63,040 nucleotides of DNA, from contig JAEEOJ010000039.1 of assembly GCA_016284175.1 (NCBI GenBank), positions 1-63,040 of the forward strand. The letters run 5' to 3'. Positions within the stretch are counted from its first letter, which is position 1. Each line of letters opens with the position of its first letter. The stretch is from Lachnospiraceae bacterium. GTDB lineage: Bacteria > Bacillota > Clostridia > Lachnospirales > Lachnospiraceae. Under the pieces are notes generated by a model. The model saw nothing but the letters and a program-made list of their open reading frames with translations, had not been told where the DNA came from and made no database searches. Below, piece by piece: positions 6,682-63,040 of the stretch. The position numbers and the translations under genes were made by a program.

Positions 6682-7626
6682 ATGATGGAGAAAGATGCGA
6701 AAATCTACGTTGCTGGACATAAGGGCATGGTGGGTTCAGCAATTGTAAGAGAATTAAACAGACAGGGTTATAACAATATCATAGTTCGCACACACAAAGA
6801 ACTTGATTTAATGCGCCAGGATGATGTTGAAGAATTTTTTGCGAAAGAAAAACCCGAATACGTATTTCTTGCAGCAGCCAAGGTTGGCGGTATTGTGGCT
6901 AATGAATCTGCGTTGGCTGATTTTATGTACGATAATATGATGCTTGAAATGAATGTTATTCATTCGGCTTGGAAGAATGGTTGTAAAAAACTCGAGTTTT
7001 TAGGCAGTTCATGTATTTATCCCCGTATGGCTCCTCAGCCTATGACGGAAGGATGTCTTTTAACCAGTGAACTCGAAAAGACCAACGAAGCATATGCTTT
7101 GGCAAAGATATCCGGTCTAAAATACTGCGAATTCTTAAATCGTCAGTACGGTACCGATTACATTTCCGTAATGCCCACCAATCTTTACGGACCCAACGAC
7201 AACTATCATCCCGAGCACAGCCACGTTCTTCCTGCATTAATTCGTCGTTTCCACGAAGCCAAAGTGGCAGGAGTTGAAAGCGTTACATGCTGGGGAGACG
7301 GTTCACCTCTTCGTGAGTTTTTATATGTAGATGATCTTGCTAATCTTTGCGTATTCCTGATGAACAATTACAGCGGTAATGAGACCGTCAATGCCGGCAC
7401 CGGCAAAGAACTCACCATCAAGGAACTTACCGAACTTGTAGCCAAGGTTATAGGCTACACCGGTAAAATAGAGTGGGATCCTTCACGTCCCAACGGCACT
7501 CCCAGAAAGCTTCTTGATGTTTCCAAGGCTAAGGAACTTGGCTGGACATACACCACAGAGCTGGAGGATGGTATCAAACTCGCTTATGAGGATTTCCTGA
7601 ACAATCCGATGAGAGCGGAGAGATAA
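6682..7626 (+). CDS. fcl: GDP-L-fucose synthase
   Basis: A 314-residue short-chain epimerase/reductase. The NADP-binding loop is AGHKGMVGSA (11-20). AAAKVGGIVANE near residue 66, GSSCIYPRMAPQPMTE near 109 (catalytic Ser) and YALAKISG (Tyr-x3-Lys) are diagnostic for GDP-4-keto-6-deoxymannose epimerase-reductase. It makes GDP-L-fucose from the product of GDP-mannose 4,6-dehydratase, which is not in this window. GAGAGG lies 9 nt ahead of the ATG; a second ATG follows at once. The first third is AT-rich like the upstream operon, while the rest has the richer composition of the later genes. Confidence 0.93.
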   Translation: MMEKDAKIYVAGHKGMVGSAIVRELNRQGYNNIIVRTHKELDLMRQDDVEEFFAKEKPEYVFLAAAKVGGIVANESALADFMYDNMMLEMNVIHSAWKNGCKKLEFLGSSCIYPRMAPQPMTEGCLLTSELEKTNEAYALAKISGLKYCEFLNRQYGTDYISVMPTNLYGPNDNYHPEHSHVLPALIRRFHEAKVAGVESVTCWGDGSPLREFLYVDDLANLCVFLMNNYSGNETVNAGTGKELTIKELTELVAKVIGYTGKIEWDPSRPNGTPRKLLDVSKAKELGWTYTTELEDGIKLAYEDFLNNPMRAER

Positions 7627-7629
7627 TGA

Positions 7630-7685
7630 GCCAACTAGGGACGGTTCTATTTTGGTCTTTTTTTACCACCGAGGGACACATCTCT
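7630..7685 (+). repeat. Dispersed REP-like repeat, copy 1
   Basis: Shares GCCAACTAGGGACGGTTCT and a following ATTTTGG-T-tract with copies at 10193-10285 and 15486-15540, and ends with a GGGACACATCTCT-type segment. It begins 4 bp after the fcl stop. The outer half can pair (CCAA with TTGG) and is followed by a run of T, so it may act as a terminator. It is probably a non-autonomous REP-type element; no transposase gene is visible. Confidence 0.75.
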
Positions 7686-7746
7686 AAACCAAGGGATGGA
7701 TATGATTGTTTTATAATTTATTTTTTTGAAAGAGTTTAGTTTTAAC

Positions 7747-7777
7747 CCATAGGCGCTAACGCGCCTATGGGTTTTTA
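7747..7777 (+). terminator. Intrinsic terminator after fcl
   Basis: A perfect 11-bp stem (CCCATAGGCGC / GCGCCTATGGG) with a TAAC loop and five T residues. It marks the 3' end of the first glycan operon. Confidence 0.9.
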
Positions 7778-7847
7778 TAATATATGTATTGCTAAATTAA
7801 AGAATTTTGTTATATTGTAAATTAATAGAAAAAAGCATTTATATAAA

Positions 7848-8732
7848 GTGTTTATAACAAATAAACTAAGTTTAGAGAAGATAATTAAAGGAAAAGAAAT
7901 TTGGATGAGAGATAGTATTTTTACAATAGAAAGAAGAATAGACTTAATAGAAGCATATAATAAATTCTTTAACGACATTAGTAATATAACTGTTACAATA
8001 AATAAAGGCTGTTATAATGCAAGAAGTGAAAGATTTTTCAAATATTTAGAATACTGCTTAAAAAATTGGCCTTTTAGAATGGGCGCAATTGGATTTGAAG
8101 ATTATTTTTATCAAATAAATATTGATTTCTTTCGTGCTCAAAAAGATGAAGATATATTGTATATATTGGAATTAATGGTTAATCTTCTATATTGGGCACC
8201 TAAACAAGAACGAAAAGATTCAGAAATGAGCTTAATGTTAAGTTCAAGCGAAGTAGAAACTGAATCTATTCGAATTATAGAAAATATAGAATATATTATT
8301 GAAAAATCCTGTAATATGAAAATAAGAGAAAAATATGATGATAGTAAAAATGAGTATTATTATGTTATATCAAAAAGGGATGTTGAGGTTGATTCGGTAC
8401 TAGAAACTGCTCCGGAATTATCAGAGATCCTTCTTGGGTATTATGACATCAGAAATATAAATGATAGCGAATATAAGAAAAGGGCGATAGAAGCTATTTA
8501 TCAGTATTTGGAACCGAATAGAAAGAAGTATAAGGGATTAAGTTGCAGTGCGATAAGTGAAGAGTTTTTTAATTCTGTAAACACTTTTGGGATTCGTCAT
8601 AATACGAAATCACAAAAAATGATACAAAATGAAAATATTTATGATGAGATATTTAAAATGGGTATATATGTATTACAAAGTGAAAAAATGTATCAGTATA
8701 AAGAAGAATTGACTAATTTGAGAAATATATAA
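7848..8732 (+). CDS. Hypothetical protein, AT-rich orphan gene
   Basis: I do not recognise the family. It is a soluble, charged protein of 294 residues if it starts at GTG 7848, or 275 if it starts at ATG 7905. Neither start has a convincing ribosome site (AAAGGA lies 12 nt before 7905). The C-terminus contains NTFGIRHNTKSQ followed by an amphipathic helix. An R-H doublet in such a place is seen in some HEPN/Abi-like proteins, so a defence role is possible but unproven. It has much lower GC than fcl and glmM on either side, follows a terminator directly and has no partner gene. This looks like a horizontally acquired cargo gene. Confidence 0.6.
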   Translation: MFITNKLSLEKIIKGKEIWMRDSIFTIERRIDLIEAYNKFFNDISNITVTINKGCYNARSERFFKYLEYCLKNWPFRMGAIGFEDYFYQINIDFFRAQKDEDILYILELMVNLLYWAPKQERKDSEMSLMLSSSEVETESIRIIENIEYIIEKSCNMKIREKYDDSKNEYYYVISKRDVEVDSVLETAPELSEILLGYYDIRNINDSEYKKRAIEAIYQYLEPNRKKYKGLSCSAISEEFFNSVNTFGIRHNTKSQKMIQNENIYDEIFKMGIYVLQSEKMYQYKEELTNLRNI

Positions 8733-45267: not shown

Positions 45268-47022
45268 ATGGAGGCGAATCTTGACGCCCAAATCAAATTA
45301 TCCGGACTTAAATCTTTAAGCGAAAAAGATGTCGAAGTAAGAGGGGATTACGACGACAAATTTTTGACGTTGTACGGGGACATCCTGAAAGAAGCGGAAG
45401 ACATTAAAACAAAATCCGCCGGTGCACCCGTTGTCGGAATGGTAAGGAAAAAAGAGAATAACAAAAAGAGAATTGTTCTCGTTGAAAGTATTCTTTCGGA
45501 CAATGACGAAACGTTCTTAAGAAATGTGTATGTCAAAGTTCTCGGAAGAGAGCCCGACAGAGCGGGTTACGACAATTTCATTGCGAAACTTAAGGAAGAC
45601 AAGAATTTCGACAGGGAACAGCTTATTTACAATTTCTGGAATTCCGATGAAGGTCAGCGAAGAAATATCGAAGTCATAGGCTTCCATAAAGTGTATATGG
45701 ACGAACTGCTTTCCCACGACGGAATGGATTTTGTAGAGCATGCTTTTTTGGGACTGCTGGCAAGAAAACCGGATAAAACCGATGCACAGAATTATTATAA
45801 TGCGATTTACAAGCAGGGCAAATCCAAAGAAGAGATAATCAGAATCATCAAAGATTCTCCCGAATGCAAGAACAGAAAAGTCGAAGTAGTCGGTTTTGAA
45901 AAGGCTTACAAGAGCCGTAAGAGAAAAGAAAAAATTATCTCCACTCCCGTACTTGGAAATGCGGTAGTTGCCTGCTGGAATATCTTCCACATAAACAGAA
46001 GATTAACCGACATCAATTCAAGTATTTCGGATCTTAACAGAAGAACGAACAGTAATTATTCCGAAATTAAAGAAGAACTGGATGAAGCCAGAAACACCAT
46101 AAAAGATTTAAGAAAAGAACTTGTGATATCCGAGTCCAGAATTCGTGAACGTGAAGAAGAAATTCTCAAGCTTGCCGATACGATAAAGCGTCTTAATAAC
46201 CTTGAAGTAGACGTGGATTATCTTGAAAGACTAAACAACCTTTTAAGCGGCCGAATGACTGTCTGGGGTTCGAAGGACAGACTTGATATTTCTCCCAAGG
46301 CTTCGGTTTATACATGCTTCTTTAATACCAATTCGGGCTGTATAACCGTCGGAGATTATACATTTGCAGGTTCCAATGTCAGCATCCTTGCAGGAAGCCA
46401 TGACAAGAATCTTAAAGGACTTGCAAGAAGAGACGCCGATGAAAAAGAAGGCTGCGATATAGTTATCGGAAAAGGCGTATGGCTCGGTTCGAATTCTACG
46501 ATATTAGGCCCTGCGGAAATCGGAGACAATGCGGTAATAGCAGCGGGAGCGGTAGTTGTTCCCGGAACAAAAGTTCCTGCGAATACAGTATACGGCGGAG
46601 TACCTGCAAAACAGATCGGACAGGAGCTTTCGTTTGATGATGAATATTCGGAGAGCATCATAAAAGCCCTCGGAAGAAAAGGCGGAATCCTTTTCACCGA
46701 AGGATGGTCGGAAAATACTGTCTTTTCTTTTAGGAGCGATAAAGAATTAGGACATTACCTGCTTGAGCCTGTCGGAAAGGTATTGCTTAAAGCGGGCGAT
46801 TATACTTTGAAATACGCATATAACAATGACGAACTGACAACCCTTTATATCGATGACGGCGAAGAAAAAAGCGAATTCATTCTTCGTGAAAAAGAGGGCG
46901 AAATCAAGTTTGCCGTAAAGCCTGCAGGTGACAATGATTTTGACTGCAGATATATAAGCTTTTCGGTTAAAACGGATGATGAACATTTTAACAACAACGG
47001 ACTGGTTATTTGCATAGAATAA
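45268..47022 (+). CDS. DUF4214 x2 / coiled-coil / hexapeptide acyltransferase fusion
   Basis: 584 residues. Two DUF4214 repeats lie at about 82-135 (FLRNVYVKVLGREPDRAGYDNFIAKL) and 153-202 (FVEHAFLGLLARKPDKTDAQNYYNAI). A coiled coil follows (~245-325). A left-handed beta-helix O-acetyltransferase (~335-455) has the hexapeptides IVIGKGVWLGSNSTILGP and IGDNAVIAAGAVVVPG and the catalytic loop GSHD (His378). A beta-rich C-terminal domain ends the chain. It most likely O-acetylates the glycan, the coiled coil aiding trimerisation. AAGGAG precedes the ATG. Confidence 0.85.
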   Translation: MEANLDAQIKLSGLKSLSEKDVEVRGDYDDKFLTLYGDILKEAEDIKTKSAGAPVVGMVRKKENNKKRIVLVESILSDNDETFLRNVYVKVLGREPDRAGYDNFIAKLKEDKNFDREQLIYNFWNSDEGQRRNIEVIGFHKVYMDELLSHDGMDFVEHAFLGLLARKPDKTDAQNYYNAIYKQGKSKEEIIRIIKDSPECKNRKVEVVGFEKAYKSRKRKEKIISTPVLGNAVVACWNIFHINRRLTDINSSISDLNRRTNSNYSEIKEELDEARNTIKDLRKELVISESRIREREEEILKLADTIKRLNNLEVDVDYLERLNNLLSGRMTVWGSKDRLDISPKASVYTCFFNTNSGCITVGDYTFAGSNVSILAGSHDKNLKGLARRDADEKEGCDIVIGKGVWLGSNSTILGPAEIGDNAVIAAGAVVVPGTKVPANTVYGGVPAKQIGQELSFDDEYSESIIKALGRKGGILFTEGWSENTVFSFRSDKELGHYLLEPVGKVLLKAGDYTLKYAYNNDELTTLYIDDGEEKSEFILREKEGEIKFAVKPAGDNDFDCRYISFSVKTDDEHFNNNGLVICIE

Positions 47023-50383: not shown

Positions 50384-52117
50384 ATGGATAATAATTCTCC
50401 GAAAAAGGAAAACAAAAAAAGAATAAGCTTAAATAAGTCGGATATTATCGTATATGCGATAGTCGGAGCACTTTCCGCACTAGCCTTTATTTCGATATAC
50501 GGAGTAAAGGTAATCAATCCCGGATATGTCGACTGGCTTTTGTCAGGCGGAGACATTTCGCAGCATTACCTCGGATGGGTGGCATACAGATTCGGAGCAT
50601 GGAAGTTTCCCATAGGCTTTTTTGATACTTTGTCTTATCCGAATAATGCCAGCATTATTTTTACGGATTCGATTCCCATAGTTGCATTTTTCTTTAAGAT
50701 TTTATCGCCTATTCTCCCCAAAACCTTTCAGTATTTCGGTTTATGGGGCGTTTTGTGCTTTATACTGCAGGGAATTTTATCTGCCAGAATCATTAAGAAT
50801 TTTACGAAAAATAAAGTCGCAATAATCATCTTCGGTGTTATTTTTGCTTTTACACCGGTAATGATAAGAAGAATGTTCGCACATACGGCTCTGGCCGGAC
50901 AGTGGCTTCTTTTTATACCGCTTGAGATACTGTTTGCTCCCGAAAAATATAAAGACAATAAAAAGATTTATATTCTGATTGGATTAACAGGACTGCTTTC
51001 AGGCTCCGTTCACATGTATTACCTTCTAATGAACGGTATGATTCTGGCCGGTATATGCCTTTATGATCTTCTGGCAAACAAAAGAATAGTCAGAAGCATT
51101 ATTCTTTTAGGAGAGTTTCTTTTAACCGGAGCCGGAGCCACGGCTTTATTCGGAGGATTCGGTTCGAATATGAAGGCACAGATCTGGGGCCTCGGATATT
51201 TCAGTTTTAACCTGAATTCGTTCTTTAATCCCATGGGCTGGTCGAGAATTTTCAAGGACCTTAAGATGTATTCCCCGGGACAGGCCGAAGGCTTTGCATT
51301 TATAGGCGCAGGTTTTATATTACTGCTTGCCTTTGCGATAGTGATGTTTTTCGTTTCGGGCAAGCCTTTTGAAAAGGTTAAGAAATACAGATTTCATATT
51401 ATTGCGATTGCATTTGTATGCCTGTGCACTCTGATTGTTTCCCTGTCTCCGACGGTTACAATCGGCGAAAAAGTTCTCTTGGATCTGCATCTTCCCGCGA
51501 AGATATTTGATTTATGGTCGGTGTTCAGATCTTCGGGCAGACTCTGCTGGAATGTGGTTTATATCATCATGTTTTTAGCCGGAATAGTTGCCGTAAAATG
51601 CACGAAGAAACAGTATCTGCTTATCGCAGCGCTTGTGATTATGTCCGCTCTTCAGATTTTTGACATGAGCAAGGTGTACAAGGCAAAGTTCAAAGAGTTT
51701 AATAAAAAAAGAACCTATGTGTCCACACTGACGGAGGATATCTGGGATGCTGTCGGAAGCGACGATGAAATAAAATATGTCGTATACGGCTATGTGCTTC
51801 CGGACACTGATGACAGAACATTTCTCTTTGATTTAACCGACTGGGGCTTAAATAACGGAAAGACTTTAAACAATTATTATTTTGCCCGTTCGATTGAAGA
51901 AGAAGCGGCGGTTGTAAGAAACAGCACACTTGCTTCACCCGACAAAGAACACATGTTTATATTTGACAAACAGACTCTGCCAGAGAGCGGTGAATACAAC
52001 CTGCATTATTACGAAACCGACGGCTGCGTGATAGGGTATGTTAACGAAATACCCGGTTTTGAGGAAGCGGATATTTCGGAATTAAAAAGTATTTATGAGA
52101 TAGAAAATGCCGAATAG
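50384..52117 (+). CDS. DUF6311-type polytopic membrane protein (GT-C-like)
   Basis: 577 residues with about 11 membrane helices. The first outer loop, GDISQHYLGWVAYRFGAWKFPIG..DTLSYPNNASIIFTDSIPIVAF, has the acidic GD-x3-H-x-x-GW and FTDSIP motifs of DUF6311 proteins. These are thought to be lipid-dependent GT-C transferases. A C-terminal extracellular part (~425-577) follows. It would decorate the exported glycan outside the membrane. It starts 18 bp after the GT4 and overlaps the following membrane protein by 11 bp. Confidence 0.8.
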   Translation: MDNNSPKKENKKRISLNKSDIIVYAIVGALSALAFISIYGVKVINPGYVDWLLSGGDISQHYLGWVAYRFGAWKFPIGFFDTLSYPNNASIIFTDSIPIVAFFFKILSPILPKTFQYFGLWGVLCFILQGILSARIIKNFTKNKVAIIIFGVIFAFTPVMIRRMFAHTALAGQWLLFIPLEILFAPEKYKDNKKIYILIGLTGLLSGSVHMYYLLMNGMILAGICLYDLLANKRIVRSIILLGEFLLTGAGATALFGGFGSNMKAQIWGLGYFSFNLNSFFNPMGWSRIFKDLKMYSPGQAEGFAFIGAGFILLLAFAIVMFFVSGKPFEKVKKYRFHIIAIAFVCLCTLIVSLSPTVTIGEKVLLDLHLPAKIFDLWSVFRSSGRLCWNVVYIIMFLAGIVAVKCTKKQYLLIAALVIMSALQIFDMSKVYKAKFKEFNKKRTYVSTLTEDIWDAVGSDDEIKYVVYGYVLPDTDDRTFLFDLTDWGLNNGKTLNNYYFARSIEEEAAVVRNSTLASPDKEHMFIFDKQTLPESGEYNLHYYETDGCVIGYVNEIPGFEEADISELKSIYEIENAE

Positions 52118-54206
52118 TCTTTTGATTACAATTTTCATAATTTCGATATTGGGAAGTGCTTTTGCATTTGCTTTTATTTTTTCGAAATTTAATGAGAATA
52201 TATCTGTTATAAAATCTTTGGTATTTGGTGTTGTCGGATATTTTTTTATATATATTCTGACATCTGCGGCTCTTTTCACATTTGACTATTTTTCAATATC
52301 CAAAGCTGTTGTCTTTAGTCTGGCAACTGTTCTGGTTATACTTTCAATTTCCGTTATTGCTTCAAAAAAATTAAAGAAAATCAGGTTCGAAAAAAAAGAA
52401 TTAATAACAGTTCTTGTTATTGTTCTTTTTTCTTTTTTGATTACAGGAAGCAAGTTCGGATTTTTCGGGATGGGTCAGGATCAGGGAGTGTACCAGACCA
52501 AAGCCATAGAATTAATCTATGAAAACAATTCGAATGTACTTAATTTCGATTATGCACTAAAGGCTTTAAATGAACCGTCGGATTACAAATATTTCCGAGA
52601 TAAAGTGAAATTACTCCAGGGTTATTATCTTGTGGGGCAGACAGAACCGTTTTATGCGGATGACAATGCTGGCGGAGAAACGGGGCTTGAAGGAATATAT
52701 CACGGCTTGCCGACATGGCCTGCCATACTGGCACTTTTCGGAAGGATGTTCGGTGTATCCCATATGCAGGATTGTCAGACGGTATTTTTCATATGTTTCC
52801 TGATGCTGACATTCTATATACTGGAGAATTTCAGAATTAAAATACTCTATGAAGCCATAGCTTTGTCTATTCTTGGAACCACGCCATTGATGGTATGGGT
52901 ATCCAAATCGGCACTGACCGAAATGTTTCTTGCTGTAATTATGGCTTTCTTTGTGTATCTTTTGTGCAACGAAAAAAGAGATGCTGCATTATTCTTATGG
53001 GTTCCGGTGGCTGTATTCTCGTTTTATCATGTTTCAGCATATACTTTGATGCCTCTGTTTGTGATTTGCGGATTGCTGAATGAACTGCGGGATAAAAGAA
53101 AGAGAGCTGTATTTGCCACACTTTTGATGTTACCCGTATATCTTGCGGGATTTCTGTTCTCAATCAGAATGGCATCTTTATATACGATACACAATTATCT
53201 GCAGCCGTTAAGAAGGCTGTCAAAAAATGTTCTGGATAAACTGTCAGGAGATAACGAACTGACATTAGCTGTTATTATAGCAGTTTCTGCTTGTTTCCTA
53301 TCAGTGCTTATTATTTCGCTGCTGTTTAAAATCTCAGCAATTAAGAAACTCATTGAAAAAGCAAAGAGCAATAGAGGATTAATTATAAAGATCGTTTCGC
53401 TGATTGTTACTGTGCTTGCCATTTTCATATGTGGAAAGATACTTAATGGTAATTTTAGTGATCCAAGAACGAATTTAACCGCGGTATCCCTGGCAACGGG
53501 AATTATAAGCGTTCCCCTGATATTCGCAGGTTTGGTATTTATACGAAGAGATAGAATAATCGGCACTCCGATGATTTATATATATGTTACTTTTATGTAT
53601 ATGATGATATGGACCGTTTTCTTAAGACCGAAGATATCACACTTTTACTATTACGGAAGGTATGATGTTCCGTTTTTAATGATATTTGTTGTATTCCTGT
53701 TTGTTTTATACAGGGATTTCGAAAAAACTGAGTGGATTCCTGCGGTTTGTGTATCTTCGGTGATACTGTATCTTAATTATGATGTCGTAATGATTAAGAC
53801 TCCGGATGATACCAAATTGCCGTGGGATGTTGTTGAGGCGGAACTAAAACAGGAGAGACTGCCCAACAGTGCCGTTATTCTGGAAGCTGACACCGAAACG
53901 CTTCTGGAATGGATGCTTATTTTAAAGGCATCCGGTGAGGAGGTGTATCCGTATGATGGTGACCTGAATACCCAGAGCGACATACTGTCACAGTACTATG
54001 ATAATGTATATTTCTTTTACGAAGATAACGGGGATTTTGATATTACTGCTATTACCGAAAAAGATTATAAACCTTTATATTATTATTCGTTTGTCCATAG
54101 TGAGGATATGGTAAACGGTACCAAAACCTGGATTGGATACCCGGAATATTTTTATAATGAAACATATTATACATATATATATTTATATTCTGTGGATGAT
54201 ATATAA
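52107..54206 (+). CDS. Large polytopic membrane protein, GT-C-like
   Basis: 699 residues with about 13 membrane helices and an extracellular C-terminus of ~170 residues. FGMGQDQGVYQTKAIELIYENN (about 122-143) is a GT-C-like first loop with the D-Q-G-x-Y acidic motif. A second loop (TEPFYADDNAGGETGLEGIYHGLPTWPAILALFGRMFG) faces outside. I do not recognise a named family. By position and topology it probably uses a polyprenyl-phosphate sugar, perhaps made by the DPM1-like enzyme encoded next. It is AT-richer than the genes before it. Confidence 0.72.
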   Translation: MPNSLLITIFIISILGSAFAFAFIFSKFNENISVIKSLVFGVVGYFFIYILTSAALFTFDYFSISKAVVFSLATVLVILSISVIASKKLKKIRFEKKELITVLVIVLFSFLITGSKFGFFGMGQDQGVYQTKAIELIYENNSNVLNFDYALKALNEPSDYKYFRDKVKLLQGYYLVGQTEPFYADDNAGGETGLEGIYHGLPTWPAILALFGRMFGVSHMQDCQTVFFICFLMLTFYILENFRIKILYEAIALSILGTTPLMVWVSKSALTEMFLAVIMAFFVYLLCNEKRDAALFLWVPVAVFSFYHVSAYTLMPLFVICGLLNELRDKRKRAVFATLLMLPVYLAGFLFSIRMASLYTIHNYLQPLRRLSKNVLDKLSGDNELTLAVIIAVSACFLSVLIISLLFKISAIKKLIEKAKSNRGLIIKIVSLIVTVLAIFICGKILNGNFSDPRTNLTAVSLATGIISVPLIFAGLVFIRRDRIIGTPMIYIYVTFMYMMIWTVFLRPKISHFYYYGRYDVPFLMIFVVFLFVLYRDFEKTEWIPAVCVSSVILYLNYDVVMIKTPDDTKLPWDVVEAELKQERLPNSAVILEADTETLLEWMLILKASGEEVYPYDGDLNTQSDILSQYYDNVYFFYEDNGDFDITAITEKDYKPLYYYSFVHSEDMVNGTKTWIGYPEYFYNETYYTYIYLYSVDDI

Positions 54207-54312: not shown

Positions 54313-55293
54313 ATGAAACTGATAATTCAAATCCCGTGCTACAATGAGGCTGAAACACTGGAGATTGCCTTAAATGATTTACCGAAGCATATAGATGGGA
54401 TAGATGAAATCGAATATCTGATTATTAACGACGGAAGTAAGGATAATACGGTTGAAGTTGCCAAAAATTGGGGAGTTCATTATGTTGTTAATTTCAAGAA
54501 GAACAAAGGCCTTGCCAAAGGCTTTATGGCCGGTATTGATGCCTGTCTTTTAAACGGTGCTGATATTATTGTTAATACAGATGCAGATAATCAGTATTGC
54601 GGAGATGACATTGAAACAATTGTGCGCCCTATTCTGGAAGGTAAAGCGGATATAGTTATAGGGGAACGACCTATAGATAAAACAGAACATTTTTCGTGGC
54701 TTAAGAAAAAACTTCAGCACTTTGGAAGCTGGGTTGTTAGAAGAGCGTCAGGAACAGATATACCCGATGCTCCTTCCGGATTCAGAGCTTACAGCAGGGA
54801 AGCTGCATTGCAACTCAATGTAATTAATGAATATACATACACTTTGGAACAGATAGTTCAGGCCGGAAGGACAAGTATTCCCATTATGTCCGTCCCCATC
54901 AGGACGAACGCTGAACTCAGGCCTTCAAGACTGTTTCACAGTATGTTTGGATATGTAAAAAAATCGATGGTCACGATTATCAGAGCATATCTTATGTACA
55001 GACCGATGAGATTTTTTATAAGCCTTGGAATTATCCCTTTCGTAATCGGGTTTGCATTGGGTGTTCGATATATAGTTTTCATTTTTATGGGCAGAGGAAA
55101 CGGTAATATTCAGTCTCTGATTTTATGCAGTCTGCTTATAATGATTGCGGTTATGATTTGGGTCCTTGGTATGATGGCAGATGTAATATCGGCAAACAGA
55201 AAAATATCACAGGATATTCAGAAGAGGACAAGAGACATAGATTACAGACTTGCTTGGATTGAAAAGAACATAAAAGAAAAAGACAAAGAATAA
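54313..55293 (+). CDS. Polyprenyl-phosphate glycosyltransferase (DPM1/ArnC-like GT2)
   Basis: 326 residues. IIQIPCYNEAETLEIAL, YLIINDGSKDNT and NTDADNQYCGDDI (DxD) form the GT2 core. SWLKKKLQHFGSWVVRRASGTDIPDAPSGFRAYSREAAL is the DPM1/GtrB lipid-acceptor region. Two C-terminal membrane helices (~236-262 and 270-295) follow. It should load a hexose onto polyprenyl phosphate on the inner face, providing the donor for the GT-C-like proteins at 50384, 52107 and 61821. It has its own promoter and GAGG upstream. Confidence 0.9.
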   Translation: MKLIIQIPCYNEAETLEIALNDLPKHIDGIDEIEYLIINDGSKDNTVEVAKNWGVHYVVNFKKNKGLAKGFMAGIDACLLNGADIIVNTDADNQYCGDDIETIVRPILEGKADIVIGERPIDKTEHFSWLKKKLQHFGSWVVRRASGTDIPDAPSGFRAYSREAALQLNVINEYTYTLEQIVQAGRTSIPIMSVPIRTNAELRPSRLFHSMFGYVKKSMVTIIRAYLMYRPMRFFISLGIIPFVIGFALGVRYIVFIFMGRGNGNIQSLILCSLLIMIAVMIWVLGMMADVISANRKISQDIQKRTRDIDYRLAWIEKNIKEKDKE

Positions 55294-55446: not shown

Positions 55447-56187
55447 ATGAAACAAGGGAAAGTTATGTTTTTGGGAATATTCAGCTTATTGCTTATGGCA
55501 TTTATAGCATTTATTCCCATGCGTGCCAATGCCGCAACCATTGAAAACGGACAAACTGTAGTACTTCAGCAATATGGAAAGCAATTCTACAAATTCACAC
55601 TGGAAGATGATTCACTGGTTCAGATTTACTGGGCTAGGAATAATTCGAAAGCGTGTGACTTTAATATTTTTACTGATAAAGACAAGGTACCGGAGAATTA
55701 TTTAAGATGGGTGAACCTTAATAGTAATAAGACAGGCAGGGAATTTATTGCCATGCGAAAAGGAACCTATTATGTCGAAATGTATGAAGTGAGTGAAACT
55801 CCTACCACAACGGTCAGGATTAACTGGACATCGGCAGAAAAATATGATAAGGGAAATTATTCGCCGAAGACAGCTCTGCCGTTAGAGGCAGATACGACTG
55901 TACGTATTGCACAGGTAGGTCAATACAGTTATATGCGTTGGTACAAAATCAAGGTGACAAAAGCACATAAGATTGAGTTTACTGAGGATTATGATTATAT
56001 TTATGCTCTTAATGTTTATTCAAGTGACTTTAGGGATTTGGGGGAGCAGTATGGCTTTACTATGAGTTTGGACAGAAAGAGAAAAACCTTAGAAAAAAAA
56101 CTCGCAGTGGGAACATATTATATTTGTGTGTATATGTATGATCCTAATTCGAAAATAGGTGGCGCTTCAGCCTTTAAATGGAATTAA
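55447..56187 (+). CDS. Sec-exported two-unit PPC-like protein, paralogue 1
   Basis: 246 residues from ATG 55447, which has AAAGGAGG upstream. The signal peptide MKQGKVMFLGIFSLLLMAFI..RANA is cleaved near ANA-A. The mature protein has two similar beta units: unit 1 with FYKFTLEDDSLVQIYW and KGTYYVEMYE; unit 2 with YMRWYKIKVTKAHK and AVGTYYICVYM. This matches the pattern of bacterial pre-peptidase C-terminal (PPC) domains. No cell-wall anchor, SLH or transmembrane segment. Very similar to paralogue 2 up to about residue 170, then divergent. Role unknown; surface-glycan binding is the favoured guess. Confidence 0.8.
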   Translation: MKQGKVMFLGIFSLLLMAFIAFIPMRANAATIENGQTVVLQQYGKQFYKFTLEDDSLVQIYWARNNSKACDFNIFTDKDKVPENYLRWVNLNSNKTGREFIAMRKGTYYVEMYEVSETPTTTVRINWTSAEKYDKGNYSPKTALPLEADTTVRIAQVGQYSYMRWYKIKVTKAHKIEFTEDYDYIYALNVYSSDFRDLGEQYGFTMSLDRKRKTLEKKLAVGTYYICVYMYDPNSKIGGASAFKWN

Positions 56188-56265
56188 TTGTTTTAATCTT
56201 GGATAATTGACCTGTGTTAGAAGGAAATCATTGTATTTTTGATAGTTTATAAAATGGAGATTATT

Positions 56266-57009
56266 ATGAAACAAATAAAAATATTGTTTTTTGGGTTATT
56301 TAGCATGCTGCTTATGGCATTTATAGCATTTATTCCTATGCGTGCCAACGCGGCAACTATTGAAAACGGACAAACTGTTGTACTGCAGGAATATGGAAAG
56401 CAATTCTACAAATTCACATTGGAAGATGATTCACTGGTTCAGATTTACTGGGCTAGGAACAATTCGAAATCGTGTGACTTCAATATTTTTACTGATAAAG
56501 ATAAGTTAATGGAGCATTATTTAAGATGGGTGAACCTTAATAGTAATAAGACAGGCAGGGTATTTATGGCCTTAAAAAAAGGAACCTATTATGTCGAAAT
56601 GTATGAAGTGAGTGAGACTCCTACAACAACGGTCAGGATTAACTGGACATCGGCAGAAAAATACGATAAGAGAAATTATTCTGCGAAGACTGCTCAGCTG
56701 TTAGAGGCAGATACGACTGTACGTGTTGCACAGGTAGGCCAATACAGTTATATGCGTTGGTACAAAATCAAAGTGACCAAAGCGCATAAGGTTACGATAA
56801 CTGAGACGTATGGTGCTCCTCTTTATCTTTTTACTATTTATTCAAGTGACTTTAGAGATTTGGGAGATATGTATAATTGGACATTTAGTTCGGATGGAAC
56901 GGAAAGGACCTTAGATAAAAAACTCGCTGTAGGAACATATTATATTGTAATGCGGAATCAAGATTATACTTCGAAGATGGGAACCGCCGCATCCTTTAAA
57001 TGGAATTAA
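56266..57009 (+). CDS. Sec-exported two-unit PPC-like protein, paralogue 2
   Basis: 247 residues. ATG 56266 has ATGGAG upstream; a longer frame to 56239 lacks a ribosome site. Signal peptide as in paralogue 1. The mature part is nearly identical to paralogue 1 (ATIENGQTVVLQ, YGKQFYKFTLEDDSLVQIYWARNN) except in two segments: FTDKDKLMEHY with FMALK, and the second-unit strands after KAHK (VTITETYGAPLYLFTIYSS). The final FKWN is kept. The 79-bp gap before it shares ATTGACCTGTGTT with the gap before paralogue 3, so the unit duplicated with its leader. Confidence 0.8.
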   Translation: MKQIKILFFGLFSMLLMAFIAFIPMRANAATIENGQTVVLQEYGKQFYKFTLEDDSLVQIYWARNNSKSCDFNIFTDKDKLMEHYLRWVNLNSNKTGRVFMALKKGTYYVEMYEVSETPTTTVRINWTSAEKYDKRNYSAKTAQLLEADTTVRVAQVGQYSYMRWYKIKVTKAHKVTITETYGAPLYLFTIYSSDFRDLGDMYNWTFSSDGTERTLDKKLAVGTYYIVMRNQDYTSKMGTAASFKWN

Positions 57010-57086
57010 TTGTTACAATCCCGATAAATTGACCTGTGTTTAAGAACATCATTAAAATTTTTGAGTATATAAAATGGAGATATTAT

Positions 57087-57809
57087 ATGAAACAGATTAA
57101 AATCATGTTTTTGGGAATATTCAGTTTATTGCTTATGGCATTTATAGCTTTTATTCCCATGCATACCCAGGCGGCTACAATCACGAATGGGCAAACCGTG
57201 AAATTGTTAAATCAGGGAAAACAGTTTTATAAATTTACGCTTGAAGATGATGCTCTGGTTCAATTTCAATGGATTAACAATGCCGACAATGAAGCTTGTT
57301 GTTATATATATACTAATAAGACAAGATCTAATACATTGAAGGCTTTTTTTATAAAAAATAAATCAGGAAGGCTATTTTTGGCCATGAAAAAAGGTACGTA
57401 TTATCTTGATTTATATGACGATTACAATCCGACCACTAAGGTAACTGTTAACTGGACTCCGGCATCAAAATATGATAAGGGCAATTTTAATGCCAGAACC
57501 GCTCAGAACCTTGAACCTGATGTTTTAGTACGTGTACCTCAGGTGGGATTTTATAGTTATTACCGTTGGTACAAAATTAAAGTTACTAGGGCTCATAAAA
57601 TAACCATAACTTTGCCGTACGGCCCTCAGAGCAAGGTTTTTCTTGTTACATCAAAATATGATAGCTCTATAAGCAGCTTTCTCATTGGAACGGATGAACA
57701 AAGTAAGACTACAACGACGAAATTGGCTGTAGGAACATATTATATTCTGGTTATGCCGGCTTCACCTGATTCCCAAATAGGCGACGCTATTTCTTTTAAA
57801 TGGAAATGA
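57087..57809 (+). CDS. Sec-exported two-unit PPC-like protein, paralogue 3
   Basis: 240 residues from ATG 57087 (ATGGAG upstream). The signal peptide ends HTQA-A. The mature start ATITNGQTVKLLNQGKQFYKF is shared with paralogue 4 rather than 1 and 2. Unit 1 closes with KKGTYYLDLYDD and unit 2 with AVGTYYILVM. The second unit has a distinct strand set (ITITLPYGPQSKVFLVTSKYD). A signal, two beta units and the final FKWK are the only features. No catalytic residues are conserved across the family. Confidence 0.8.
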   Translation: MKQIKIMFLGIFSLLLMAFIAFIPMHTQAATITNGQTVKLLNQGKQFYKFTLEDDALVQFQWINNADNEACCYIYTNKTRSNTLKAFFIKNKSGRLFLAMKKGTYYLDLYDDYNPTTKVTVNWTPASKYDKGNFNARTAQNLEPDVLVRVPQVGFYSYYRWYKIKVTRAHKITITLPYGPQSKVFLVTSKYDSSISSFLIGTDEQSKTTTTKLAVGTYYILVMPASPDSQIGDAISFKWK

Positions 57810-57877
57810 ATTATAGTCTGTTTTTAAATAAGAAAAAGCAGAATGAGTTAAATACCAAATTCGTAAGGAGATTATAG

Positions 57878-58618
57878 ATGATGAAAGTTTTAAAAACGGT
57901 TGTTTTAGCCTTTGTCGGTATTATTTTAGCAGCATTTATAGCCTTCATTCCTATGAAGACCCAGGCAGCGACAATCACGAATGGGCAAACCGTAAAATTG
58001 TTAAATCAGGGAAAACAGTTTTATAAATTTACGCTTGAAGATGATGCTTTGGTTCAAATTAAATGGATTAATAATGCTAACGATAAAGCTCAATGCATAA
58101 TATATGATAGTAAGACAAGAAATATAACATTGGTAAGTAATTTTGTGAAAGGAAAATCCGGAAGACAATTTTTGGCCTTGAAAAAAGGAACGTATTATCT
58201 TGATCTGTTTGATGATTCAACTGCTCCGAGCACAAAGATTACTATTAATTGGACACCGGCATCAAAATATGATACGAATAATTATACTGCAAAAAAAGCC
58301 CAGCTGGTGAGCCAGGATACTGTTGTGCGTATTCCGCAGGTTCACAATCATGATTATATGCGTTGGTATAAAATTAAGGTTACCAGAGCTCATATAGTCA
58401 CGTTAACGAAACTTTATGATTATAATGGTTATGGTTATTATTTAAATAACATAAGTATTTATTCATCTAACCTGGATAAAGTAGGTTATACTTATGATTA
58501 CAATGCTAATACTATTACAACAACAAAAAAACTTGCCGTGGGAACATATTATATTTCGGTTGGAATGATTGATCCATACGCTCCGGTAGGGGAAGCTCTG
58601 GCTTTTAAATGGAATTAA
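57878..58618 (+). CDS. Sec-exported two-unit PPC-like protein, paralogue 4
   Basis: 246 residues with the double start ATGATG and AAGGAG upstream. Its signal peptide (MMKVLKTVVLAFVGIILAAFIAFIPMKTQA) differs from those of paralogues 1-3 while the mature N-terminus matches paralogue 3, so signal and mature parts have evolved separately. It contains FYKFTLEDDALVQIKW, KKGTYYLDLFDD, YMRWYKIKVTRAH and AVGTYYISVGM, ending FKWN. A strong hairpin lies after it and ends the tandem run of four. Confidence 0.8.
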   Translation: MMKVLKTVVLAFVGIILAAFIAFIPMKTQAATITNGQTVKLLNQGKQFYKFTLEDDALVQIKWINNANDKAQCIIYDSKTRNITLVSNFVKGKSGRQFLALKKGTYYLDLFDDSTAPSTKITINWTPASKYDTNNYTAKKAQLVSQDTVVRIPQVHNHDYMRWYKIKVTRAHIVTLTKLYDYNGYGYYLNNISIYSSNLDKVGYTYDYNANTITTTKKLAVGTYYISVGMIDPYAPVGEALAFKWN

Positions 58619-58666
58619 TTGAACTTTTTAAAATAGTTAATGAGAAAATTTAATATTCGATAATGT

Positions 58667-58699
58667 CAACTTACCACACTTTCTGAGTGTGGTAAGTTG
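58667..58699 (+). terminator. Long hairpin after the tandem exported-protein genes
   Basis: A perfect 14-bp stem CAACTTACCACACT / AGTGTGGTAAGTTG with a 5-nt loop. No T-tract follows, so it may be an mRNA-stabilising or attenuating hairpin rather than a classical terminator. Confidence 0.6.
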
Positions 58700-58731
58700 A
58701 TGTTACGACAAAAATACGGTCGCATGAAATT

Positions 58732-59721
58732 ATGCAGAAAACAACAGATTTAGTTAAAGATAAAACAGTATTATTTATTACAACAAAAAATATTGATTAT
58801 ATAAGAAATACTCAGGAAATAAGATTGCTAAAAGAATACTCAGAGAGCGTGGATCTTATATATTCAGATAAAAAGAATAATCCTTTTCGCATTCTGGATG
58901 TATTTGGAAAAATTCTAATAAGGAAAATGAATAAATATGATATAGTATTCGTTGGCTTTGAACCTCAGTTCGTTGTTCCGTTCGTTGGAAAAAAATTTAA
59001 GAACAATACCCTGAGTATAGATTTTTTTATTTCTGTCTATGACACGCTGATTTGTGACAGAAAAAAATTCAAAGATGGCGGATTAGTATCGAAAATATGC
59101 CGTTGGATGGATATAAAGACTCTTGAGGCGGCAGAACATGTTATTACCGACACCAGGGCTCATGCAGATTTTTTCATAAAAGAATTTGGCGGAGAGGAAG
59201 AAAGATTTGAAACCATTTACCTGGAAGCCGATTCTTCTATATATTACCCTAGAGAACAGAAAAAAACTCCTGAAATGAAAGATAAATTTACGGTTCTTTA
59301 TTTTGGAAGTATCCTTCCGCTTCAGGGAGTGGATGTGGTTTTGGATGCTATCCGCGAATTAAATAACCGTCCGGAAATTTATTTTGATATTATAGGTCCG
59401 ATTCCGAAGCAATTAAACAAACCGATTCAGGATAATGTCAGCTATACTACATGGCTTTCGCAGGAAGAACTTGCAGAGCATATAGCTGCTTCAGACTTAT
59501 GTCTGGCCGGCCATTTTTGTAAAGATATAGAAAAAGCCGGACGGACAATACCCGGCAAAGCTTATATATACGAAATGATGGGCAAAAAAATGATACTTGG
59601 GGACGGAGAAGCCAATCACGAATTGTTTAAGGCTGATGAAAATCATTATTTTGTGGAAAGAGGAAATGCGAAGAATTTAGCAGGTCTGATACTTGAAATA
59701 ACTGAAAAGAATAAGAATTAA
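58732..59721 (+). CDS. Family 4-like glycosyltransferase
   Basis: 329 residues. KTVLFITTKNIDYIRNTQEIRLLKEY opens a GT-B N-domain without the usual glycine-rich loop. The C-domain has FTVLYFGSILPLQGVDVVLDAI and YEMMGKKMILGDGEANHELF (E-x7-E replaced by a shorter acidic stretch). The ribosome site is weak and the gene lies between paralogues 4 and 5 of the exported family. It may add a sugar needed for the display or target of that family, but only position supports this. Confidence 0.75.
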   Translation: MQKTTDLVKDKTVLFITTKNIDYIRNTQEIRLLKEYSESVDLIYSDKKNNPFRILDVFGKILIRKMNKYDIVFVGFEPQFVVPFVGKKFKNNTLSIDFFISVYDTLICDRKKFKDGGLVSKICRWMDIKTLEAAEHVITDTRAHADFFIKEFGGEEERFETIYLEADSSIYYPREQKKTPEMKDKFTVLYFGSILPLQGVDVVLDAIRELNNRPEIYFDIIGPIPKQLNKPIQDNVSYTTWLSQEELAEHIAASDLCLAGHFCKDIEKAGRTIPGKAYIYEMMGKKMILGDGEANHELFKADENHYFVERGNAKNLAGLILEITEKNKN

Positions 59722-59727
59722 ATTGTT

Positions 59728-59756
59728 TTGCAAAATAAAATAATATATGTTACTAT
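59728..59756 (+). promoter_or_regulatory. Promoter of exported paralogue 5
   Basis: TTGCAA (59728-59733), a 17-nt spacer and TACTAT (59751-59756), giving a leader of about 45 nt. Confidence 0.65.
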
Positions 59757-59805
59757 AAAAATACCCTTGAAACAGCAAATAGTAATTTATGAAAGGAATG
59801 AGAAA

Positions 59806-60552
59806 ATGAAAAAATTATTATTAAGTCTCGCTGGATTAATCTGCACATTCTTTTTAGCACTTGTTTTAGTTTCACCTATGCGTGCTGAAGCTGCTACTAC
59901 TTTCAAGACTTTAAAGAATGCAAACACTGTTTCCGTAACCAAGAGCGGAGATCAGGCTTACTACAAATTTGGAATTACTGAAGACTCACTTGTACACTTT
60001 TCTTGGACAAACGCAACATCAGAACGTCTTGAAATAGCTGTATACAAAGATAAAGCCATGAAACAGAGAGTAAAATGGTTTTATCCCGGAACAGCGAAGG
60101 GTGATGCATATTTAGCTCTTAAGAAGGGAACATATTATGTTGAGATGTACGAAGGAGTATACGGATCAACAGTTCCTACTGCAAAAGTAAAATATACTTT
60201 TGCCCCTGTTGTAAAAATTAATCAGGATAATTACTGTCGAGCAAAAGCTCAGACAATAAAGGCAGGAACCACAGTCAAATTGGCTCAGACTCCTCAGTAT
60301 GATTATGTTCGTTGGTACAAGTTCTCAATTCCAAAGGCTAAAAAAGTAGCAATTAAGACTCCACAGGGTAACAATACATATTTCGATATTTATTCTACTA
60401 GCCTTCAGAGATATAACGTTGAATATTCGGGAAATGTCAAAATGGTAACTAAAGATAAGTTGCCTGCAGGAATGTATTTTATCAGAGTAATGGCAGATAA
60501 CAGTTATATACAGGATGTTTTGGGAACATACATTGTTTTCAATTGGGAATAA
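59806..60552 (+). CDS. Sec-exported two-unit PPC-like protein, paralogue 5 (divergent)
   Basis: 248 residues from ATG 59806 (GAAAGGAATGAG upstream). The longer frame from 59728 starts in the promoter and can be dismissed. The signal peptide MKKLLLSLAGLICTFFLALVLV ends RAEA-A. Unit 1 has YYKFGITEDSLVHFSWTNA and KKGTYYVEMYEG; unit 2 has YVRWYKFSIPKAKKVAIK and AGMYFIRVM. It keeps the family plan but is clearly divergent from the other four and has its own promoter and terminator. Codon use is slightly closer to core genes, so it may be the ancestral member. Confidence 0.8.
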   Translation: MKKLLLSLAGLICTFFLALVLVSPMRAEAATTFKTLKNANTVSVTKSGDQAYYKFGITEDSLVHFSWTNATSERLEIAVYKDKAMKQRVKWFYPGTAKGDAYLALKKGTYYVEMYEGVYGSTVPTAKVKYTFAPVVKINQDNYCRAKAQTIKAGTTVKLAQTPQYDYVRWYKFSIPKAKKVAIKTPQGNNTYFDIYSTSLQRYNVEYSGNVKMVTKDKLPAGMYFIRVMADNSYIQDVLGTYIVFNWE

Positions 60553-60639
60553 TATGTTACTTGAATCAGAGACAAACCGGTATTATTACCGATAATCAAG
60601 AATATTTGTTTTTCTGAAAATTTAAAATTTTAAAATAAT

Positions 60640-60670
60640 AAAGAGAAGTATTGAAAAATGCTTCTCTTTA
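60640..60670 (+). terminator. Terminator-like hairpin after paralogue 5
   Basis: AAAGAGAAGTATT (60640-60652) pairs with AATGCTTCTCTTT (60657-60669) with one G-T wobble; the T-rich 3' arm end serves as the tail. Confidence 0.7.
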
Positions 60671-60751
60671 GTATTGTATAGACTTCCCTTTCATAAGAGA
60701 CGGTTGCTTTTGTAATATATGAGATTGGAAAAAAGTATATTAGGTGACAAA

Positions 60752-61786
60752 ATGAAACCGCTTATCACTTGTGTTGTTGCTATATATAATGTTGAAAAGT
60801 ACCTCGACGAATGCATCGACAGCCTGATTAAACAAGAATATGAGAATGTAGAAATTTTACTGATTGATGATGGATCAACGGATTCATCCGGCAGTATTTG
60901 TGATGAATTTCAAAAAAAAGATGAAAGAATAAAGGTTTATCATCAGGAAAACCAGGGGGCAAATGCAGCCAGAAACCTGGGTTTTGAAAAAGCTGCAGGA
61001 GAATGGATTTATTTCGTTGACGGAGACGATTTTGTAAATAAAAATGTTTTTTCGGCAATTGAAGAATACATAAATTCTGAAAATAATGTTGTTTTATTTA
61101 CGAATTATGTATTTTCAAACGGAAAAGTAATAAGAAAAGGTGAAAAAACAGAAGAACCGATTCTGTTTTCAAAAAAGGATTTTGACGAATTGTCTATTGC
61201 TACAATGAATAGATTGGGAGACAGTCGCTATAATTATAAAATCCTCGATTCCGTAAGCATCTGGAATAAAATATACAATACCTCATTTTTGAGAGAAAAT
61301 GAAATTGCTTTTGTACCCGGATTTCCTAAAACGCAGGATTTGTCTTTTAACCTGCTTGTTTATGAAAAAGCCTGTAAAGGTGTATTTGTTGACAATGAAG
61401 GATATTATTACAGAATTAATCCCGATTCGGTATCCAATCGTTTCCAAAAGGATTTTCCTCACAAGCTGCAGGTATTAAATGACTGGTATTATCAGTATTA
61501 TAAGAATCATGATAATGCGAGAATGAAAGAGGCATACGAAGGCAGGATTCTGACTTTTATGAGAACCATGATTGTTCTGTATTCCTGCAATCACAGTAAT
61601 GACAGGAAATATGCTGACAGAAAAAAGGAATTCTGCAGCCTGGTTGAGAAATATGGTATCGACAAACTTGATTTAAAGATTATAAAGAATCTCCCGATTA
61701 AAGAAAAAATACTGTCGTATCATATAATTAAGAAAAGGTTTTTTGTCTGCGAATTATTAGCCAAAGCATATGAATTATTGGCCTGA
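60752..61786 (+). CDS. Family 2 glycosyltransferase
   Basis: 344 residues from ATG 60752, preceded by TAGGTGA; the reading from 60719 adds 11 atypical residues. PLITCVVAIYNVEKYLDECIDSLIKQEY, EILLIDDGSTDSSG and FVDGDDFV (DxD) are the full GT2 core. The C-terminus is helical and basic (IKNLPIKEKILSYHIIKKRFF), as in capsular side-chain transferases. It stands alone after a terminator and precedes a GT-C-like membrane protein by 34 bp. Confidence 0.9.
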   Translation: MKPLITCVVAIYNVEKYLDECIDSLIKQEYENVEILLIDDGSTDSSGSICDEFQKKDERIKVYHQENQGANAARNLGFEKAAGEWIYFVDGDDFVNKNVFSAIEEYINSENNVVLFTNYVFSNGKVIRKGEKTEEPILFSKKDFDELSIATMNRLGDSRYNYKILDSVSIWNKIYNTSFLRENEIAFVPGFPKTQDLSFNLLVYEKACKGVFVDNEGYYYRINPDSVSNRFQKDFPHKLQVLNDWYYQYYKNHDNARMKEAYEGRILTFMRTMIVLYSCNHSNDRKYADRKKEFCSLVEKYGIDKLDLKIIKNLPIKEKILSYHIIKKRFFVCELLAKAYELLA

Positions 61787-61820: not shown

Positions 61821-63040
61821 ATGTTTAAGAAATTAAAAATAAAAGAACCAATTTATTATTGTTTGTTGATATTAATAACTGTAGGGGTTTGTTTTCCGTT
61901 CCTTTACATGAAATCAATTTCAACTACCGATGAGTTCGTTTCGATCGCTATTCCATATCAGTTATCGGGTGCTGACTGGGGAGATATTATTTCCTCACGT
62001 AACTGGCATGGATACGGAGTTACGATTTTTTTGGTTCCCTTTTTAAAGTATTTCAGCAGCAATATGATTATGCCGATGTTCCTGATGCTTGGCGTAATTG
62101 TCAGAACTTTATGCGTTTTAATAACATATTTTATTGCAAATAAACTTTGTAAAGTTAACAGTTTTAATTCGTTTTTAATTTGTTTGATTTCTTCGTATGG
62201 CTTTCTCGGAAACTGCACATATGGCGAAACGAATATTCTCCAGGAATTACCGATGGTATTAATATGCTTATTGGTTATTCCTTTATTGTTTAATAATGAA
62301 CTTAAATGGTATAAAACTGCAATTGCTGCAGTTTTTTCTAGTTATTTGGTATTAATACACAGCCGATATCTTGTAGTTTATTTTGGTATTGTAGTAGTTC
62401 TTCTGGTTAAATGTTACCTGGAAAAGAAGGGGTATCTGAATATTCTTCTGTTTCTGGTGATACTGGGAGCATTATATTTCGGCTTTAATTACCTTAATAC
62501 CGAAATAACTAAAATATGCTTCTCAAGCAGCACAAAAACGGTAAGCAATACAGTAAGCAGTATAACCAAAACCCAATCAATAATTGCATATATAGAAAGA
62601 ATTATACGAAACGGAATCTGGGGAACATTTAAGATGGTTATGGGCCTTCTGGCGTCATTTACTTTCTGGTCGCTCGGATTGATTTGGTTTACGATTTTCG
62701 CTTGCATTAAATCCATTAAAAACAGTCTGAAGAATAAAGAAAAATTCAGTACAGAACAGTACATAGGATTATTCGGAATCGTTATGTTTTTTACGATGGT
62801 TATTCTTCTGACAATTATGGCTATGGACGGAAAGGGCGAAAAACTGTACAGAAATTACATGCTTGTCAGATATGCCATGCCGTTTACCTGGATGATTATT
62901 CTGGGCGGAACCGTTATTTTATCGCGAGATTTTAAAAATTTTAAAAAAGAAATTATTATTTCGGGAATAGTGAGTCTGGTACTGGAAATATGGTTTATAG
63001 ATGTTCTGGCAAAATGGTTTGACCTGGAAAACTATTCGCT
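61821..63040 (+). CDS. GT-C-like polytopic membrane protein, 3' end outside window
   Basis: The frame from ATG 61821 is open to the last base (about 406 codons), so it was cut only by the window edge. It starts MFKKLKIKEPIYYCLLILITVG, then ISTTDEFVSIAIPYQLSGADWGD in the first outer loop, where D-E is the position of the GT-C catalytic acid. At least ten membrane helices follow. It likely transfers sugars from polyprenyl-phosphate outside the membrane, as the DPM1-like enzyme at 54313 would provide the donor. No good ribosome site is visible; TTTTGAG is the nearest. Confidence 0.75.
   Translation, partial: MFKKLKIKEPIYYCLLILITVGVCFPFLYMKSISTTDEFVSIAIPYQLSGADWGDIISSRNWHGYGVTIFLVPFLKYFSSNMIMPMFLMLGVIVRTLCVLITYFIANKLCKVNSFNSFLICLISSYGFLGNCTYGETNILQELPMVLICLLVIPLLFNNELKWYKTAIAAVFSSYLVLIHSRYLVVYFGIVVVLLVKCYLEKKGYLNILLFLVILGALYFGFNYLNTEITKICFSSSTKTVSNTVSSITKTQSIIAYIERIIRNGIWGTFKMVMGLLASFTFWSLGLIWFTIFACIKSIKNSLKNKEKFSTEQYIGLFGIVMFFTMVILLTIMAMDGKGEKLYRNYMLVRYAMPFTWMIILGGTVILSRDFKNFKKEIIISGIVSLVLEIWFIDVLAKWFDLENYS

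Follow-up and report, generated by a model that had tools for sequence, protein, structure and literature searches.

Capsule and exopolysaccharide (EPS) loci carry cassettes that are exchanged between conserved border genes. The collagenase ColG contains a tandem collagen-binding domain (CBD), s3a-s3b (Protein Data Bank (PDB) entry 5iku, family PF04151), which consists of two consecutive beta units of the PPC/CBD type. RbmA of Vibrio cholerae is encoded in a single copy in a Gram-negative host, and its gene presumably adjoins polysaccharide genes. It is a small secreted protein with two tandem beta domains, and its second domain binds VPS, the bacterium's own polysaccharide (PMC5605196). Protein C of Myxococcus xanthus is the C-terminal fragment of FibA (residues 515-744, ~31 kDa); it contains two PPC domains and is located in the extracellular matrix and the spore coat, which shows that a PPC pair can serve as a surface protein (PMC3236237). 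Here we describe five genes for exported proteins with two PPC-like units each, located in a glycan locus of a Lachnospiraceae bacterium (assembly GCA_016284175.1, contig JAEEOJ010000039.1). The window is the whole 63,040-nucleotide stretch analyzed, positions 1 to 63,040 of that contig. This genome is labeled G000 and its contig with the window C14; other G labels denote compared genomes, and L labels denote fetched stretches.

The five genes lie on the forward strand: copy 1 (55447..56187, 246 amino acids (aa)), copy 2 (56266..57009, 247 aa), copy 3 (57087..57809, 240 aa), copy 4 (57881..58618, 245 aa), and copy 5 (59806..60552, 248 aa). The likely Met starts are at 55447, 56266, 57087, 57881 (or the preceding Met at 57878), and 59806. 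Copies 1-4 are arranged in tandem with intergenic gaps of 71-78 bp. Each protein begins with a signal-peptide-like leader that is hydrophobic, contains Lys, and ends with ANA, TQA, or AEA, followed by two PPC-like units; the mature part is 211-219 residues as delimited by a crude leader search. Read by eye, all five C-termini consist of F(K/N)W plus one residue. Relative to copy 1, identity is 78% for copy 2, 56% for copy 3, 50% for copy 4, and 33% for copy 5. Copy 5 retains an NYC(R/V)A...AQTP..DY.RWYK signature, as in the members from G011, G025, and Solobacterium. A family-specific profile found the five copies and no other members in G000 at E <= 1. No lipobox Cys, LPXTG motif, or second transmembrane segment was seen by eye in the five sequences, and Pfam and NCBIfam scans found no anchor domains in them (LPXTG, lipobox, SLH, or choline-binding repeats). 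The same scans placed no catalytic family over its cut-off, peptidase families included; matches to NCBIfam Pgp3 and Por_Secre_tail were also below cut-off, and PPC was the sole family matched over it. The initial annotation, which described five exported two-unit PPC-like proteins of about 240-250 residues with neither an anchor nor a catalytic signature, is thus confirmed, and a clear match to a known enzyme family, which would have contradicted it, was not found.

The assignment to PPC (PF04151, Pfam gathering cut-off 25.9 bits) comes directly from copy 2 (29.0 bits) and copy 5 (27.7 bits), which pass the cut-off with two stretches each. Copies 1 (16.9 bits) and 3 (19.1 bits) are below it, and copy 4 is not listed; homology within the family carries the assignment to these copies from those that pass. 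The cut-off is also passed by the members from G025, Solobacterium, and G224, and the G011 member scores 23.7 bits, below it. Searching G000 with PF04151 gave no match at E <= 0.001, which we take for a sensitivity limit and not absence, because the family-specific profile recovers all five copies.

Profile and structure comparisons point to ColG s3a-s3b as the nearest solved structure. A single-sequence PDB search with copy 5 gave no match below E 0.2. The five-copy profile matched 5iku across both units (E 7.6e-4), and an eight-row profile matched it with E 2.1e-3. AlphaFold models of copy 5 (mean pLDDT 73.1, pTM 0.62) and copy 1 (pLDDT 79.6, pTM 0.69) both contain two mainly-beta units, and the first PDB match of each by Foldseek is 5iku, with E-values of 8.9e-13 and 6.1e-12, respectively, spanning both units. 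The jelly-roll-like beta unit of PPC thus appears twice per protein in both models, and the two-unit PPC architecture proposed in the initial annotation is supported. The alignments behind these models contained six sequences only, and loop detail is not to be read from them. Sequence identity to 5iku is 16-19%. Superposition over the whole length gives low TM-scores of 0.35-0.39 and a high rmsd, indicating that the two units are either placed differently relative to each other or placed with uncertainty; single domains match better (1nqj, TMt 0.67). Weaker matches (~1e-6) to CUB domain pairs, SIDT proteins, and botulinum hemagglutinin components share beta-sandwich pairs and, on these predicted models, do not discriminate. 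Like ColG s3a-s3b, the copies have two consecutive units of similar length. They differ from ColG in that a leader and these two units make up the entire protein, with the collagenase module absent.

This likeness raises the question of an external ligand. PPC domains of Vibrio collagenases bind collagen (PMC8799719), and the five proteins might similarly bind a host or food protein or fibre, the glycan locus being merely a variable region that gathers surface genes. The ColG match and the homologues outside glycan loci described below would agree with this. However, no enzyme module is linked to the copies, the family is tied to a glycan cassette inside the genus, and a soluble adhesin without an anchor would have to bind the cell as well in order to tether it. 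We consider an external ligand unlikely.

Inside the genus, close full-length members were found in 3 of 31 genomes, all in this glycan locus: G000 with five copies, and G011 and G025 with one each. The scan with a five-row profile had matched four genomes. The fourth match, in G010, was rejected as signal-peptide resemblance: it covers model positions 1-52 only, in a short open reading frame (ORF) among ATP-synthase-like genes identified by eye. At L036:9783-10160, a short ORF beside ATP-synthase-like genes, whose gene model is uncertain, starts with a leader closely resembling that of the PPC family, followed by an apparent small membrane subunit. The left border of the variable cassette is a family 2 glycosyltransferase (GT2) of the polyprenyl-phosphate sugar synthase (DPM-like) kind (54313..55293, +), which is present in 7 of the 31 genomes, with 89-93% identity in the six others. 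A PPC protein occurs in 3 of the 7 genomes with this GT2 and in 0 of the 24 without it (Fisher p = 0.008). For a GT-C orthologue (>50% identity) the corresponding counts are 3 of 4 and 0 of 27 (p 0.0009). With related genomes and physically linked genes, both p-values overstate independence.

The glycan locus extends over ~80 kb (C14 29,897 to 111,702). C14 proteins were compared with those of the fetched G011, G025, and G020 stretches, and the locus is largely syntenic with that of the congener G011: among 42 called genes outside the cassette, 27 have 85-100% identity, 13 have 52-80%, and 2 are unmatched. The replaced region is bounded by the GT2 at 54313 (93% identity to G011) and a dehydrogenase at 73463 (97%), and the GT-C-like genes at its edges, 52107 and 70925, have 60-61%. 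Of the 14 called genes between 55369 and 70830, the five PPC genes alone are matched in the G011 cassette, with 35-40% identity; the GT2 at 60719 weakly matches another part of the G011 locus (38% over 131 residues). The PPC family therefore belongs to a replaceable cassette, of which it is the single element retained in the comparison with G011. Compared with G025, the PPC genes have 31-40% identity, and five further cassette genes (60719, 63571, 65002, 68741, and 69376) have weak counterparts at 26-43%. The G025 PPC gene is located at the far end of the cassette on the opposite strand, after PseF-like and aldolase-like genes. This arrangement resembles known capsule and EPS cassettes in that replaced sugar genes lie between conserved border genes (GT2 89-93%, dehydrogenase 97%), and differs from them in that the exchangeable content includes a rapidly diverging exported protein family. 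The sequence after the bordering GT2 differs between genomes, and this gene may anchor the recombination by which cassettes are exchanged. In G020, the GT2 (G020:C251:4923-5891, -) is followed by a YvcK-like gene (by eye) and by GT-C-like and dehydrogenase genes, with no sugar cassette between (L058); this is possibly a near-empty form of the cassette slot.

In a nine-protein tree, copies 1-4 form one clade (97/100 support) that contains the pairs 1+2 (97/96) and 3+4 (99/98). Copy 5 has a very short branch and joins an unresolved fork that also holds the G011, G025, and Solobacterium members; the root serves for drawing only. The layout of four tandem genes and a fifth divergent copy in the initial annotation holds, with the correction that the tree suggests copy 5 to be the older type and copies 1-4 a derived tandem, the root not being established. 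In pair 1+2, the youngest, unit 1 is conserved, with a nonsynonymous rate (dN) of 0.047 and a synonymous rate (dS) of 0.186, but residues 174-216 are not, with a dN of 0.394 and a dS of 0.360. The counts of nonsynonymous and synonymous changes are 16/17 in residues 30-173 versus ~50/13 in residues 174-246 (Fisher p 0.003). Residues 174-216 are again least conserved in pair 3+4 (24% identity). These comparisons suggest fast change in the distal part of unit 2, with selection not proven. The G011 and G025 proteins were used without the first Met in the alignment and dN/dS work, and in full form in the tree and the isoelectric point (pI) calculations.

Surface binding is the most likely function, because these are unanchored exported double binding domains that are kept with a surface-glycan cassette and vary beside it. 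We propose, with a probability of roughly 0.45, that the stand-alone Sec-exported PPC beta-sandwich proteins act as diffusible accessory proteins at the cell surface or in the matrix and bind the polysaccharide of the cell that makes them, where glycan binding is the part we infer. After export, they would remain attached, without covalent bonds, to the acidic surface polysaccharide or the wall of their own cell. One unit would maintain a conserved contact, and the other would be tuned to the glycan of the strain. In this way, the proteins would coat or cross-link the surface polysaccharide. The initial annotation had suggested putative roles as lectin-like coat proteins, glycan cross-linkers, or substrates for glycosylation. 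The likeness to RbmA lies in the tandem beta domains, the export leader, from which secretion is predicted, and the glycan-gene surroundings. RbmA has fibronectin type III domains, which were not matched in the copies; their first structural match is the PPC/CBD tandem, followed by CUB-type and other beta-sandwich proteins, and we do not claim homology. The copies differ from protein C, a proteolytic fragment of a metalloprotease, in being encoded by stand-alone genes.

Acidic-sugar steps in the locus count in favor of this proposal. The locus contains a Wzt-type exporter ATPase with a Wzt_C domain and a Wzm-like permease (below cut-off). Its sugar genes include a GDP-mannose 4,6-dehydratase and a nucleotide-sugar dehydrogenase of the UDP-glucose 6-dehydrogenase kind (over cut-off), and NeuB/PseI-like and PseF/PseG-like proteins are present below cut-offs. 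The acidic-sugar steps (the nucleotide-sugar dehydrogenase, NeuB/PseI-like, and PseF/PseG-like proteins) lie beyond the window. All eight family members tested are basic (pI 8.8-9.8), and among 14 further exported-looking proteins that the crude leader search collected from the contig, 12 have a pI of 4.2-6.0. As judged from sequence, the basic charge fits an acidic polymer, yet it is common to unlinked PPC proteins.

Several observations weigh against the proposal that these proteins bind the cell's own polysaccharide. No sugar cleft was identified. A pI of 7.7-9.8 was also found in 7 of 8 PPC proteins flagged in other genomes of the family (flagging found proteins in 7 of 10 loci and missed L042, L043, and L045), and basic charge as a specific adaptation to an acidic glycan was rejected because the unlinked PPC proteins are mostly basic too. 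The residue boundary used for pair 1+2 was set after viewing the alignment, dN/dS is not contrasted in pair 3+4 (0.39-0.48, with 0.41 in unit 1), and the excess in pair 1+2 could reflect a 3' end that was imported or is under relaxed constraint. The bordering GT2 is present without a PPC protein in four genomes (G016, G020, G022, and G029), as searched in the stretches at E <= 1 and in the genomes at E <= 0.001, so the locus does not need it. A single inherited event may account for the linkage in G000 and G011. Relatives also occur outside glycan loci. G224 has a more distant, stand-alone 255-aa protein with two PPC stretches (PPC score 33.1 bits). The Solobacterium member has a surface context and not a glycan locus. 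A 50.7-kb phage-like IMG/VR contig (L073) encodes a two-unit 247-aa relative with an export-like leader at 7575-8318, again outside a glycan locus.

These relatives were recovered in scans of different scope. In the family-level scan at 1e-5, 18 of 397 genomes match; one is G000, and the other 17 matches are weak (E 1e-11 to 8e-6). The neighborhoods of 10 of these 17 genomes, G224 among them, were inspected by reading the genes by eye over 20 kb each (9 kb for G180), and no weak homologue was located in a locus for glycan assembly; the homologue in G112 has a UDP-glucose-dehydrogenase-like gene ~4 kb away. At 1e-12, the eight-row profile matched G000 alone among 398 phylum genomes, and G000 and G331 among 392 order genomes. 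The genome-contig scan gave two loci, a full-length member in a Solobacterium metagenome-assembled genome (MAG; L006) and a partial match in a Dysgonamonadaceae MAG (L007). The Solobacterium gene is flanked by two genes for proteins with export-like leaders and choline-binding/cell-wall-binding repeats, and nusG and ribosomal-protein-like genes were recognized nearby by eye. The tie to glycan loci claimed in the initial annotation thus holds within the genus (all three genomes with close members), where it agrees with the co-occurrence with DPM-like and GT-C genes. It is not supported as a general system: the DPM-like GT2 is present in four genomes without a PPC protein, and stand-alone relatives outside the genus are not in glycan loci (Solobacterium, G224, and the phage-like contig). 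Scattered homologues with no link to glycan loci, which the initial annotation named as contradicting its reading, therefore occur outside the genus but not inside it. The five genes belong to a genus-level glycan-locus family that is not an obligatory component of the glycan system, and the PPC protein should be able to work without neighboring glycosyltransferases, given the relatives in the phage-like contig and elsewhere.

The L073 protein matches the eight-row profile over positions 6-232 (47.6 bits). Its gene is near the contig end, with a glucosaminidase/amidase lysin on one side and a serine recombinase on the other, a position where temperate phages often carry cargo. Pfam assigns no PPC to it, and its best match is a sub-threshold CUB-like domain. 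A tblastn search of INPHARED phages with copy 5 and the L073 protein found nothing at E 0.01, and a second viral scan, with the L073 protein, returned the same contig only. This near-full-length relative between lysin and recombinase would suit genes that are passengers of a recombination hot spot, with a function unrelated to the glycan, such as surface shielding also carried by prophages. Two further points favor this reading: the slot is optional (3 of 7), and the rest of the cassette is not matched in that of G011. Hitch-hiking is less easily reconciled with the PPC family being the sole cassette element kept against G011 (against G025, the five other genes are weakly matched at 26-43%) and with its amplification to five copies in one genome, and we regard it as rather improbable. 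A bolder extension of polysaccharide binding is that these proteins form a mobile glycan-tuned coat-protein family, riding in surface-glycan cassettes and, seen once, in a phage-like cargo position. It would mask or cross-link the cell's own polysaccharide, for example against phages, and diversify via distal unit 2 after tandem duplication. This is a speculative and quite unlikely scenario at present.

The glycosyltransferases next to the PPC genes in the initial annotation were all confirmed by Pfam: the bordering GT2 at 54313, a GT4-type glycosyltransferase (Glycos_transf_1; 58732..59721, +) between copies 4 and 5, and a further GT2 (60752..61786, +) after copy 5. The GT4 gene has no counterpart in the compared G011, G025, and G020 stretches. 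GT-C-like membrane proteins, recognized by eye, flank the PPC array on both sides. The upstream one (52107..54206, +) matches no Pfam family at E 0.01 and has 60%, 54%, and 52% identity to G011, G025, and G020, respectively; the downstream one (61821..63040, +) continues to contig position 63581 and has no counterpart in the compared G011 stretches. With these flanks, and with a bordering GT2 that resembles the lipid-linked sugar synthase and protein glycosylation models AglJ, PpgS, and PgfS in NCBIfam (all below cut-off), the PPC proteins might be backbones decorated by the locus transferases, forming an S-layer-like glycoprotein. We find this role as glycosylation acceptors very doubtful, since the Ser plus Thr content is merely 14-21% in eight family proteins with no Ser/Thr-rich tract seen, four congeners have the GT2 without a PPC gene, homologues occur away from these transferases, and the locus encodes other large exported proteins that could serve as acceptors just as well. 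Repeated DUF4214 was noted in four large exported-looking locus proteins beyond the window (L029:14736-16553, L030:6267-8729, L030:8761-10650, and L031:5901-7862), as well as near the start of a hexapeptide-repeat, acetyltransferase-like protein in the window (45268-47022); it is perhaps a shared glycan- or surface-related module. DUF4214 was not co-mentioned with glycosyltransferases in the open-licence literature.

Regulatory signals were also scanned. A terminator-like hairpin (60639..60670, +; consensus match only) follows copy 5, and nine terminator-like sites were found in the region against 4.2 expected by shuffling. The promoter scan was uninformative (35 sites versus 34.2 expected). 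Between copy 4 and the GT4 gene there is a near-perfect inverted repeat (58661..58705, +) with 20-nt arms of 90% complementarity and a 5-nt loop, without a clear T-run.

The initial annotation knew of no described system with this layout. We likewise found no report of it in the open-licence literature, where PPC domains were not co-mentioned with exopolysaccharide or capsule and appeared with biofilm matrix in the LapX/Lap paper only; RbmA and protein C are functional precedents. The parts are already known, and their combination is new. If polysaccharide binding is correct, some bacteria would pair an exchangeable surface-glycan cassette with an exported binding protein that belongs to the cassette and diverges fast, comparable to the Vibrio matrix proteins. 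A domain familiar mainly as a protease tail would also gain a stand-alone role. The three genomes, with 1, 1, and 5 copies at 31-78% identity, would offer a natural series for following how such proteins track glycan structure.

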